Shown piece after piece: positions 38,274-48,916 of a DNA stretch of 64,000 nucleotides. Source of the stretch: Aotearoamyces nothofagi (lineage: Eukaryota; Ascomycota; Leotiomycetes; Leotiales; Tympanidaceae); contig JADDTR010000020.1 of assembly GCA_015345905.1 (NCBI GenBank), positions 1 through 64,000 on the forward strand, given 5' to 3'. Positions within the stretch are counted from its first letter, which is position 1; every line of letters starts with the position of its first letter. The notes under the pieces are model-generated. The model was given only the letters and a program-made list of their open reading frames with translations. It searched no databases and was not told the DNA's origin. Position numbers and translations under genes: made by a program.

Positions 38274-39958
38274 ATGTCAACATTATCCCCAGCAGTTAAT
38301 AATCCGTTTGTGGATCCGCGAACGGATTCAGAGGATCATGGCACCGACCGAGCATTTGCCGTCGACTCTACTTTGGCTGTCGGGAAGGATGCGTCCTTGA
38401 CCTTGGGCACTGACTCTCTGATCGTATTGGGTGAGTAAACGGCTTATCTGACCCGGTACCTGCAGAATTCTGATATTGTGCAATAGATGAGACTTTCGGA
38501 AAAGCCGACCAAAACAACTGCTGCGGTTTATGGTCTTCAGGTACTTTCCGAACAGATCCCGACCGATATGACTACTCTAGTAACTCCAAAACTGCAGGCT
38601 CAGCGAACACACGCGCGATCCCATTCTATAACGTCCTATGGGCAGAGCTCTCCGAATCCGACATTATAATCAACTATGCTCTTTCAATTTCGAAAATGGT
38701 TGTCCGTGCAACCGTCATGACCTACCCTTTAGAAGCCCAACTCCGAGGCCAGGCTGCTATATGGATTAATAAGCTACTGGATCGATCATATGGCGAAGCG
38801 CAAAAGCAAAAGAGGGCAAAGGTGCTCGTGAACCCACATAGTGGTAAAGGGAGTGCTGAGAAATGGTATTATCGAGATATCGAACCAATTCTTGCCGCTG
38901 CTAAGTGTAGCATTGATATGGTAAAAACGACCCATAGCGGCCAAGCTGTAGAAATAGCAGAGAAGCTGGACATCGAGGCCTTCGATGTAATTATGGCATG
39001 CTCTGGTGACGGCTTACCACACGAAGTATTGAATGGACTTGGAAAGCGTCCGGACGCGAAGAGGGCCCTAGGCAAGATTGCTGTGGTCCAGATGCCATGC
39101 GGCTCTGGGAATGCCATGAGTGCAAACTTAACCGGGACAGACAGTGCCAGCATGGCTGCATTAGTATCTATCAAAGGAGTTCCAACGCCTCTGGATCTGG
39201 TCTCCATCACTCAGGGTACTACGCGAACACTGTCATTCTTGTCCCAATCTGTCGGCATCGTTGCAGAGTCTGATCTCGCAACTGAGCACTTGCGATGGAT
39301 GGGGCAGGCTCGGTTCACCTACGGCTTCTTAGTGAGACTCTTCCGAAAGACAGTCTATCCTTGTGATATATCTGTTAAGGTGGCAATTGGTGATAAAGCC
39401 TCAATCAAGGAACATTATCGTAAAGAAGTAGCAAGCCATGTGCCTACAGCCGAACGCCGGGGTAACAGAAAGACGGATGATGACGATGATGCTTCCGCCA
39501 GCAGTGGGGGAAGCGGGAGTGAACAAGGTCTTCCGCCTCTAAGATATGGTACGATCAACGATAAGGTTCCAGGAGGGTGGGAAACAATACCTGGCGACAC
39601 GATGGGGAATTTCTATTGCGGAAACATGGCCTATATGGCGACTGGCGCCAACTTCTTCGCATCTTCACTCCCAAACGATGGGTGTATGGATCTTATATGC
39701 ATCGATGGCAACATTAGTCGAATAAAGGCTGTTCAGCTCATGCTCTCTATCGACACCGGAACCTTCTTCGACATGCCTCTTGTTAGTTATCGGAAAGTCA
39801 CAGCATATCGAATAACTCCGAAAAGTAAAGGCGACGGTTACATTAGTATTGATGGCGAGCGTGTGCCTTTTGAGCCGTTCCAAGCAGAAATCCACCGAGG
39901 ACTGGGCACAACTCTTTCAAAAAATGGGCACACGTACGAAGCGCCGGGTCCTGTATGA
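38274..39958 (+). CDS. LCB4: sphingosine/long-chain base kinase
   Basis: A 542-residue protein in two exons (38274-38430, 38487-39958; intron 56 bases). The diacylglycerol-kinase-type catalytic domain has the phosphate loop VLVNPHSGKGSAEKW (from about residue 166), CSGDGLPHEVLNGL (from about 224), PCGSGNAM, then FLSQSVGIVAESDLATEHLR and SIDGERVPFEP. It phosphorylates long-chain sphingoid bases to their 1-phosphates in sphingolipid signalling, at cytosol-facing membranes. An acidic/Ser loop (DDDDDASASSGGSGS) interrupts the domain, as in fungal Lcb4/5. Bases 38541-38597 (57 bases, GTACTT...CTGCAG) have intron-like ends but are also open in frame, so a 523-residue spliced form is possible. The symbol follows yeast; Lcb4 and Lcb5 cannot be told apart here. 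Confidence 0.93.
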
Positions 39959-45080: not shown

Positions 45081-46073
45081 TATACGATACCCGGCATTTG
45101 CCTCATCTTCTTCGTCCTGCTCTTCATCATCTCCAGCAACCGAAGGTTGCATAATTCAATACTCAACGTTAATAGTTGCGCAGCATCAGCATTCTGGTAG
45201 ACTGAAGCGTCAGGCACTAGGAACCATTAATTGGCATTGACAATTGGCAATTCGCAGTTTGGCCTCAGTCCGGGCGTTCATGGTAGTCTGATGCACCTGC
45301 ATTTTTGTATTTACTCTCGATGATCAGGATATGGTCTTGATCAGATCATGCATTTTAGCGTTTAGTATCTAGGTCCTCGTCGATATAGCGCCGAGAGACA
45401 CAGCCCAGCGTATTTAGCAATATAACTTCAACTCAGAGCAGCATCTATTCTACTACAGCAAGAGCTTTCTCACGCCGAATTTAGAATAAATGTATTACCA
45501 TGAAACAGAAAGATGAGAACCGAATAGGAGGGTGAACCTGTAAGGGCGGCTACAACCAGATCAAGTGGAGATCACGTAGAACAATGCAAGAGTGCGGAGT
45601 ACATAAGACCATTTCTCCGAGAGTGTAGTGAGGGGGAACCGAAGCCGCCTCGTATATGTTGTAGGTGGAGAAGGAAATGGGAATGTATAGCTATAATACC
45701 ACTACTGTGACGGGGAAATTGGAATTGAGTGTGGCTAGGAATATTGAACGTGTAGTTACAACTTGCAAGGGTATGTTGTGTAATAGATTTACGGGGCTGA
45801 TAATTTGAAAGCTTGCCGTGAGGGCGATCAACCTTGCTGTGATCAAGGGGCAGGTAGTTTCTGTTGCTCAGATGTAGTGCATTCTTCAAATGCCTTTTAA
45901 GTAGATGTATTTTGCGAGATGCTGTTCAAGACCTGCCTTTAGAAGCTGGGATTTAGGGATAAGTCAAAGTTGCCTATAAATATATTCGAGCCGGCATACA
46001 GAGAGACGGTTTCATGGTGCAATGATTTCAAGACTTTGGAAATATCATATTAATTCATTACTATGTAATGTAT
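45081..46073. other. intergenic, ORF-poor
   Basis: About 1 kb with no coding signal on either strand; 3' flank of the UBTD gene and probably 3' part or flank of the non-coding host transcript to the right. Confidence 0.45.
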
Positions 46074-46166
46074 CTAGGTGGCTAATCATAGAAGCCTGAT
46101 CAGCTATTCACGTTAGTGAGGGCTCCATCTTATATCAGCAATAAAACGAGAGTAATGTAGATACAT

Positions 46167-46252
46167 GATATCAGTTCTCCAAGGTGATTGGATGTTTCGT
46201 CAAAGATGGACTCGGAAAGAACACAGCGAAATTATATTTGATCATCAGATAA
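46167..46252 (-). ncRNA. candidate C/D box snoRNA, target unknown
   Basis: A box C-like CTGATGA (46248-46242, first base not a purine) and box D CTGA (46174-46171) lie 78 bases apart in the 219-base intron 46074-46292. No target was recognised for the bases before box D (CACCTTGGAGAA). Confidence 0.4.
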
Positions 46253-46479
46253 GGTAGGGTGGTGGAATATAAAAGAGCACTATCAAGCTTACCTATTGAA
46301 AGTGAGACCAGGTGTTCAAGCGCTGATATTGATACCTAGAACACAAGATCGTGTCAGCATTATGCTAGACTCATGGCACAATGTGCTTTCAAGTATACAA
46401 GTCAAGGCATCTTTTCAGGCTGAAACTAGTTAGCTATTTGATCGTTCACCAACCCTGGAATGGAATTATCTTACCTCAT

Positions 46480-46550
46480 TAAATCAGATTTCTTTGTAAA
46501 TGCGTTCAGCGCCGAAGCTCAAACAGTGTGAATAAGTATCATCATTTGAT
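46480..46550 (-). ncRNA. possible C/D box snoRNA with 18S A100-region complementarity
   Basis: Box C ATGATGA (46545-46539) is followed by CTGA at 46509-46506 and 46487-46484. Flanks GCATCAA and TTTAATG could form a partial terminal stem. The segment 46487-46475 is complementary over 13 bases to 18S CUCAUUAAAUCAG, next to A100, the target of yeast snR51 (snR41's cluster partner), but no canonical D box follows it. A 13-base match could be chance, so this is weak. Confidence 0.3.
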
Positions 46551-46893
46551 GCATAGTTGAGGAAACGAGAAGCAAAAATCTGTAATATACCTTCGCAAAG
46601 TTAGCATGCGTATTAAAATACGGACGTTGTCCTGCCACAATGAATTTGTGTGTTCGTATCAGCTGACGAGTTCTCAACATGCACATCCTACTATCTACCC
46701 ATACAAGGTTTGTACGCCTTGCGTGTTTCAAGGATAGAAGTAGAAGCGCTGTCTGTCCGCCCGTTCGTTCAAAGTTCGTCATGTAGAGGGTACGTGTTCA
46801 TGGGTAGGGACAATAGATGTAATACCTATATATTGCAAGACATGTCAGCTATGGTCTCGCAAAGAAGTCATAAATATGCAGCAAATAAATAGA

Positions 46894-46984
46894 TAGGTCA
46901 GACAAGGCTGAAACTGAAGACAGAATCTACATAATATATTCGGAATGAGGAATTCCTATTGTTGTCACTTGATCATCACACCAA
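46894..46984 (-). ncRNA. snR41: C/D box snoRNA, snR41 homologue
   Basis: Box C GTGATGA (46979-46973) and box D CTGA (46901-46898) bracket about 80 bases, with a weak terminal stem. Directly upstream of box D, 46915-46903 is complementary over 13 bases to the universal 18S rRNA segment CAAGGCUGAAACU. The fifth base before box D (46906) pairs with the G that counts to yeast position G1126, the known snR41 target. A second guide (46949-46940) pairs with 18S UUGGAAUGAG, the A541 region, snR41's other known target. Both the geometry and the pair of targets match. It sits inside intron 46826-47019 of the host transcript. The rRNA sequence and positions are from memory. Confidence 0.85.
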
Positions 46985-47137
46985 AAAAGTAAAGCACAAA
47001 ATAAACATAGTCCACCAACCTTTTGTTTAGTTTGCAGAGCCGATGATGACAGTCTGCAATAGAGGCTATTCCCTAGTGAGCGAGTTAGCAAGACATCTTT
47101 GAAGTATATGCGTCGTTACTATGAATATTTATGCTGA

Positions 47138-47224
47138 AATCTCAGGAGTATTTCTTGAGTAATTGGGGTCCCCATTATTGTGTAAGAGTTGGATTGTTCA
47201 GTGTTTGTACTCTCATCATAGAAG
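47138..47224 (-). ncRNA. candidate C/D box snoRNA, target unknown
   Basis: Box C ATGATGA (47219-47213), an internal CTGA at 47201-47198 and box D CTGA (47145-47142) lie in intron 47073-47260. The spacing of 78 bases is right. No rRNA target for the segment before box D (ACTCAAGAAATACTC) could be named, and the terminal stem is poor. Confidence 0.5.
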
Positions 47225-47549
47225 AAACCGCCATGAAGAAGGATATAAGATGAGGCTTACCATTGAGTAACTGTCATACACCACATTTGGTGGTGATGAA
47301 TGATGAAGTTGAAGGATGGAAAACAGAAGAGCAGAAGAAAAGGACGCTCGAGAAAATCGTGAGCTTGTGCGCTTCCCTAGCGTGTTCTGCTAGCGGGTCG
47401 TTTATTACATGGCAAGCTCCGCATCATGTGATAAGTGTGGCTGAGACCTGTCGCCACCAGCCTCATAGCTTATCAACAATCGGGGGGGGCTCTTCCATCT
47501 CTCATCCGTCATACGTCGCAGAAGCAGTGGGCTTCACGAATCTGCGATT

Positions 47550-48916
47550 ATGGCACCGTCCAGTGTGATCCGGGCGCCTATAGCCTTGAATCTACTGAAG
47601 TAAGCACATCTTGGTTCTTACTACGAGGTTACTCAATCGTTTTGTAACCTGAGCTAATATTCAACAGGAACGCCTTGAAGAGGACATCGGAGATTGTTCA
47701 GAAGCGTCTGGCAGAGATCGCACGTCGCTCTGGGGTCATCGGAGAGTTACAACCTATCCTTGCACGTAACAATCCAAGGCAGCCTATAAGCAAGGCAGCA
47801 TGGCTTCGTCAGAGCAAGGGTAGATGGTACACAACTCATAGTACCGTCAATGCTACCGTTCGTCGATTTATCAACACCGGCGCTTCAAATGTAGCTAAAT
47901 TTGATCGCTCACCCTTCCCAAAGTCCTCCACAGGTGCAGCAGTATCACGTCTCACAATTCGAGCTCCCTTCGCTTCGACTCTACGACCCAATCTTACCGG
48001 TGGCGCTCTCCCTAGGACTGCTGGAGGTTATAGTTTAGGTGGAGGACGCGCTGGCGGGGCACGGTACTTCTCTCACACACCTGCTGCACCAGCACAAGTT
48101 GTCAATAATGTTTCCGCTGCCGTTCGAGCCTTCTGGCTATCTGGTCATAAAGCTCAGTTCGATGGCCTGACCGCCAGAGGAGAGAAGAAATACCGTGCTA
48201 TCAGCAACCTTCAAGGAAATGCCAGTCAAAAAATGAACTCTCTCCCTAAGTTTGCACCTGGATCATTCATTGACTTCCATATCAGCCCTACGGTTACGGC
48301 GCTTAGCCCACTTAGCGCTGCTTTCCCGCACTCATCTGCTATGATGCAAGAGGTACCAACCTTAAATACCGAAGGGTTCTTGGATGTGCTCTCTATTGAT
48401 TTTTCTCGAGCTTTGAAAGATTTAGTTGCCGTGATGAATGATCTTAAGCGTTTATCGGCATTTGGCGATTTACCCATTACACTCGAAGGAAAATCAACTC
48501 TACGAGTACGTTTTCCAGGTTGTGACTCGGAAACAGTTGAGCGCCTATGTGATGAAATTGGTGTGCAGCGAGGCATCATAAATCAGGATCTTGATTTTGA
48601 TGCTAGCGTTGGCGGACATATGGCGCTCATGTTTCCCTTTGCGAACACATCAGATCATACCTTATCTTCTCCAGGAGGGTCTCTCCGATCCCAGACTGGC
48701 TATGAATGCGAAGATCTAGACTATGAAGAAGCCGATGAATTCACGAAGAACCCGTGGCTATCATCACCGGAAGGTTATGACAGCATGGGGGATCTTAGTG
48801 AAACCGAATCCATGATCTTCGCCCGACCAAGCGATCATCAAGGATCCTCGGACTATGAAGGGCTTGAAGGCATATACCGTTTCATAGAACAATGCGATAC
48901 TTCTAGGAGGATCTGA
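47550..48916 (+). CDS. fungal protein annotated as casein kinase II beta 2 subunit family
   Basis: A 432-residue protein in two exons (47550-47599, 47668-48916; intron 68 bases). The start MAPSSVIRAPIALNLL followed by basic and Ser-rich sequence (GRWYTTHSTVNATVRRFINT; RAPFASTLRPNLTGGALPRT; GGARYFSHTPAAPAQVVNNV) resembles a mitochondrial presequence region. The conserved body contains AVRAFWLSGHKAQFDGLTAR, GSFIDFHISPTVTALSPLSA and VRFPGCDSETVERLCDEIGV, ending in an acidic tail. Pezizomycotina relatives are commonly labelled casein kinase II beta 2, but no CK2-beta zinc finger is visible, so that name is doubtful and real function is unknown. The divergent non-coding host transcript starts about 250 bases upstream. 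Confidence 0.75.

Follow-up and report, generated by a model that had tools for sequence, protein, structure and literature searches.

The window, by which we mean the whole stretch of 64,000 nucleotides of Aotearoamyces nothofagi DNA that was analysed, carries on its minus strand an RNA gene that matches the Rfam family Afu_455 (RF01860) with 69.3 bits (cut-off 48, E 3.4e-9), and the alignment covers positions 1-92 of the 92 positions of the model. On the strength of this family match, the gene is a real one and of a known kind. Box C and box D lie near the two ends of the RNA, just where a sequence-only reading of this locus had placed them, and between them stand two degenerate candidates for the internal boxes, CCGA and ATGTAGA, in the same placement as in the Afu_455 consensus, whose D' box reads CUUA where the window RNA has CCGA. 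The terminal stem is weak (flanks TTTTTGGT and CCTATCTA). The same reading had proposed a search with the covariance model of yeast snR41 (RF01218); this model reached 27.9 bits on the RNA, under its cut-off of 50, and the RNA belongs to Afu_455 instead. Neighbours at 25670-54365 include ATG11, coatomer beta, a sphingosine kinase (38696-39958), a Pre-SET protein, a ubiquitin-binding-domain protein and an Ish1 protein. For the sphingosine kinase, the best hits that carry an organism name include Mollisiaceae, Acephala, Coleophoma and Amorphotheca at 70-71% identity, below five top hits at 74%; the source is probably a fungus belonging to the Leotiomycetes or close to them.

Table 1. Features of the snoRNA, of its predicted host gene and of candidate guides elsewhere in the genome. 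Positions are those of the window unless a locus is named.
Feature	Position	Strand	Basis
Box C/D snoRNA, Rfam Afu_455 (snR41 type)	46896..46983	-	Whole-model Rfam match
Box C GTGATGA	46973..46979	-	Sequence
D' guide TAGGAATTCCTC	46947..46958	-	12 Watson-Crick pairs to 18S 1572-1583, T variant
D' box CCGA, degenerate	46940..46943	-	Aligns with CUUA of the Afu_455 consensus
C'-like box ATGTAGA	46926..46932	-	Sequence; AUGUGGA in the Afu_455 consensus
D guide to 18S G1126	46902..46915	-	13 Watson-Crick pairs and 1 G-U
Box D CTGA	46898..46901	-	Sequence
Intron A (proposed)	47066..47260	-	GTAAGC..GCTAAC..TAG, splice signals
Intron I (proposed), holds the snoRNA	46826..47019	-	GTTGGT..GCTGAC..TATAG, splice signals only
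Intron II (proposed)	46580..46825	-	GTATTA..GCTAAC..TTACAG, splice signals only
snR70 equivalent, tentative	46659..46782	-	ATGACGA, guide ACGGGCGG, D'-like CAGA, later CTGA
snR51 equivalent, split by intron B	46415..46549	-	Rfam snR51, 39.5 bits, cut-off 44
Intron B (proposed), 55 nt	46420..46474	-	GTAAGA..CTAAC..CAG, parts snR51 guide from box D
Intron C (proposed)	46104..46292	-	GTAAGC..ACTAAC..TAG, splice signals only
Box C/D snoRNA, Rfam Afu_294	46168..46249	-	77.8 bits, cut-off 43, E 2.9e-13
A541-type box C/D guide	L002:1436-1516 (contig C1)		Box C 1436-1442, box D 1513-1516
Candidate G1572 guide (snR57-like)	L004:1598-1501 (contig C7)	-	Box C, CTGA, 11 pairs

The host gene and its snoRNA cluster

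The snoRNA falls within proposed intron I, which has good branch-point and 3' splice signals and a weak 5' splice site (GTTGGT) and which directly adjoins proposed intron II, for which an alternative end exists at an AAG at 46591. The tentative snR70 equivalent forms 8 pairs with +5 on C1639 and gave no Rfam match. Downstream lies the snR51 equivalent, split by proposed intron B: its guide adjoins box D only after removal of this intron, and in the spliced form 14 pairs with 18S put the +5 position at the A100 site. The Afu_294 snoRNA, which may resemble U55, sits within proposed intron C at one end. Proposed intron A contains a box C-like ATGATGA (47219) and a CTGA (47145) and perhaps holds a further snoRNA, without a match to any snoRNA family; a U45-type pairing for this candidate, judged by eye against rRNA, was not convincing. 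On the minus strand at 45700-47650 we found a single ATG reading frame of at least 40 aa, and since this frame of 87 aa runs over the proposed introns, the host gene looks non-coding. Splice signals and the lack of a long reading frame thus support the earlier placement of the snoRNA in an intron of a non-coding gene, the splicing itself being predicted.

An arrangement of this kind has been published as cluster III, snR41-snR70-snR51, which in filamentous ascomycetes is located in introns that abut, carries intron B inside snR51 in Euascomycetes and has U45 and U55 introns at its ends (PMC3596301). As there, an snR41-type RNA is followed in the window by an snR51-type RNA on one strand, with abutting introns, an intron B and extra snoRNA introns at the ends, although snR70 and the end introns are tentative here. 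Yeast snR51 makes Am100 and Um2729 (PMC5199042), and the N. crassa equivalent of snR51 is exon-encoded (PMC2780460). Judged by this arrangement, the host gene is the published cluster III of fungi, including the intron inside snR51.

The D guide and 18S G1126

Directly 5' of box D, the D guide forms 13 Watson-Crick pairs and 1 G-U with the 18S segment GCAAGGCUGAAACU; the 13 Watson-Crick bases pair with CAAGGCUGAAACU, and 14 bases pair when the G-U is counted. Its +5 position falls on a G, and the U of GACUCAAC follows 65 nt later; this U is presumably yeast 1191, which makes the G 1126. The guide together with box D occurs at one place genome-wide at up to one mismatch, with 0 for the reversed-pattern control. 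Thirteen bases before box D that pair with 18S and select G1126 had been proposed from the letters alone, and the proposal holds in register: by function, the RNA carries the snR41 guide for this site, with methylation of the G1126 equivalent as the predicted outcome. The A. fumigatus 18S fragment, as printed, contains TCGCAAGGCTGAAACT (PMC9600342).

The same guide is common to the window RNA and S. cerevisiae snR41, which is the first RNA of the same cluster and makes Am541 and Gm1126, as the earlier reading had stated (PMC5199042). N. crassa CD9 (snR41-II), located in cluster III, likewise has a D guide for the G1126 equivalent, entered in the accessible part of the table as 18S Gm1122, D guide, 14/0 (PMC2780460). 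Afu_455 of A. fumigatus shares both the boxes and the D guide.

The D' guide and the predicted site at A1573

In C. albicans, 18S 1572-1583 reads GAGGAAUUCCUA (PMC4422620), and the second guide stretch, TAGGAATTCCTC, forms 12 Watson-Crick pairs with this segment. CCGA comes three bases after the guide stretch, and the C'-like ATGTAGA then follows. With CCGA as the D' box, the guide pairs at 14 of its first 15 positions; the exception is an A-C mismatch at guide position 3, where the Afu_455 consensus is mismatched too, and the +5 position is A1573. When the 56 bases that separate box C from the D guide were dinucleotide-shuffled 300 times, only 1 shuffle reached a 12-base complement. The 1572 site was searched for only once the A541 claim discussed below had failed. 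Genome-wide, the D' guide with this spacing and C-GA has 1 match, against 0 for the control.

The spacing from A1573 to C1639 is 66 nt in all five sourced 18S sequences. Because the same 66 nt (1645-1579) separate A1579 from Cm1645 in Arabidopsis (PMC11542601), A1573 equals Arabidopsis Am1579. In the plain text of that source, the row for Am1579 is filled for Arabidopsis and two more plant columns, and the human and yeast cells look empty. SnoR8 is the listed Arabidopsis guide for 18S A1579 (PMC8053127); it is listed for the equivalent site but is likely an unrelated RNA. Near A1573, yeast has Gm1572, made by snR57, and m7G1575 (PMC5199042). A1573 itself is absent from the accessible yeast and N. 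crassa methylation lists (PMC5199042, PMC2780460), and the open-access literature searched, in its accessible portions, yielded no prediction of an A1573 guide.

The Afu_455 consensus has a D' guide like that of the window RNA save at one base, which stands opposite a variant position of the 18S: facing 18S 1579, the guide has A in the window RNA and C in the consensus. In this comparison of one family consensus with one window, the consensus has AAGGcAUUCCUC where the window has UAGGAAUUCCUC; AAGGcAUUCCUC pairs better with GAGGAAUGCC (-23.9 vs -17.2 kcal/mol), and UAGGAAUUCCUC pairs better with GAGGAAUUCC (-19.9 vs -15.4 kcal/mol). The A. fumigatus side of this match between guide and rRNA fits, because the A. 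fumigatus 18S fragment has G at the variant position (PMC9600342). For the 18S of the present species, the genome searched (25.5 Mb in 55 contigs) has no match to either of the conserved patterns CGAGGAATNCCTAGTA and TTTGTACACACCGCCCGTCG, and its rDNA is probably absent from the assembly. The pairings therefore rest on the 18S of other species, and the window half of the match is a prediction. A search for relatives by DNA pattern gave 0 matches in viral contigs and 0 in genome contigs.

Taken as a whole, the sequence evidence probably places the second target better at 18S 1572-1583, with A1573 as the predicted site. The D' stretch could also be no working guide at all, which would leave a single-guide RNA for G1126 and make the 12-base match a chance event or an aid to binding. 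Chance does reach 12 pairs, if only in the one shuffle; the D' box is degenerate and the duplex mismatched at position 3; CD9 has one listed target in the accessible table (PMC2780460); and accessory pairings are common (PMC5389607). Those described, however, adjoin the main target, whereas 1572 is far from 1126 (PMC5389607). Moreover, the D'-like and C'-like boxes stand at their expected places, and the stretch is kept in the Afu_455 consensus with its one differing base matching the A. fumigatus 18S, so that we regard a single-guide RNA as unlikely, though it deserves serious consideration.

A shift of the site by one nucleotide appears more doubtful still. The D' stretch would then methylate G1572, the yeast snR57 site, in place of a lost snR57. 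The duplex includes G1572, a one-nucleotide displacement of the methylated site can result from deviant C'/D' motifs (PMC5389607), the snR57 intron is reported lost from cluster II in all Euascomycetes (PMC3596301), and the accessible N. crassa table has no guide for G1572 (PMC2780460). Counting +5 from CCGA nevertheless leads to A1573, the nucleotide that this degenerate box would be expected to choose. In addition, a pattern for a guide in G1572 register was found at 8 places at up to one mismatch, 1 of them exact, with 2 for the reversed control. The exact one (L004) has a box C and lies downstream of a coding region, with +5 on G1572, though under the Rfam cut-offs; among the 8 places, L004 and L007 were scanned and gave no Rfam match at cut-off. 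The exact guide at L004 implies that an snR57-like guide may persist, and a takeover from snR57, considered as the main reading, was lowered after this search. Also at L004, positions 1222-1369 hold an inverted stretch of GAGTT-like repeats; plant microRNA models reached at best 33.9 bits there (cut-off 80), and these are probably simple repeats.

A541 and a separate A541-type guide

The sequence-only reading had described the RNA as an snR41 homologue with both yeast targets, the second guide pairing at A541. Its snR41-type C/D identity and the G1126 guide stand; the A541 part does not. The stretch in question, CTCATTCCGA, pairs with UUGGAAUGAG through 9 Watson-Crick pairs and 1 G-U, and no D' box follows it. 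With U578 as the reference point in two 18S sequences from PMC8125830, UUGGAAUGAG corresponds to yeast 18S 507-516, while A541 lies 37 nt before U578, within GAGGA(A/U)CAAUUGG. Against an algal 18S, 106 of the 300 shuffles attained 10 pairs of which no more than one was G-U. We therefore rejected A541 as the second target on the position of the segment, on the chance-level pairing and on the separate guide described next; this RNA carries no guide for A541.

The pattern of an A541 guide followed by box D occurs at two places genome-wide, L002 and L003. At L002, the guide and the algal 18S segment form 12 pairs with one internal difference, at a position where fungi have an A, and +5 is A541. 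This guide is flanked by exons of a gene that, in its downstream part, matches SF3B3 (5hy7, E 1.7e-206). There, no Rfam family scored above cut-off, and the snR41 model gave 23.9 bits (E 1.3). L003 was discarded as an A541 guide, as no TGATGA stands in the 120 bases upstream. By its sequence features, a separate A541-type guide is present as a candidate RNA in an intron of the SF3B3 gene of the same genome.

That the window RNA is a full snR41 equivalent for both sites, as its G1126 guide, its place in the same cluster as yeast snR41 (PMC3938493) and the two products of the yeast RNA (PMC5199042) might suggest, is hardly credible in view of the segment at 507-516, its match by more than a third of the shuffles, the missing D' box and the guide at L002.

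A proposed division of guide functions

Based on these findings, we favour, with some reserve, an intronic C/D snoRNA whose D guide serves G1126 and whose D' guide most likely serves A1573, with A541 guided elsewhere. In this model, a box C/D snoRNA would be expressed from a non-coding snoRNA host gene and released from its intron by splicing and processing. The D guide would direct 2'-O-methylation at the 18S G1126 equivalent, and the D' guide would pair with 18S 1572-1583 and lead to methylation of the A1573 equivalent (plant Am1579) rather than of A541. Methylation of A541 would fall to the separate candidate at L002. The snoRNA, its G1126 guide and the cluster are of kinds already known; what is new is the A1573 guide, as a prediction.

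The division resembles in part that of N. crassa, where CD13 (snR41-I) carries the guide for the A541 equivalent (A538) on a separate RNA elsewhere, like L002 here (PMC2780460). Unlike the window RNA, CD9 is listed with its D target only and with no second target in the accessible table (PMC2780460). S. cerevisiae snR41 differs in having the A541 guide that the window RNA is without. Whether the scheme extends to filamentous ascomycetes at large, with an snR41-type RNA combining the G1126 guide and a D' guide that co-changes with 18S 1572-1583 for 2'-O-methylation of A1573, and the A541 guide on a separate intronic RNA, is in our estimate an evenly balanced question. As guide and rRNA appear to co-change between lineages, most testing of the predicted A1573 guide requires 18S sequences only.

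Our analysis corrects the ribosomal sites that this fungal RNA can address. It describes a cluster member in which the G1126 guide is retained while the second guide departs from that of yeast, and it predicts that in filamentous fungi A1573 may be ribose-methylated, two bases from m7G1575.
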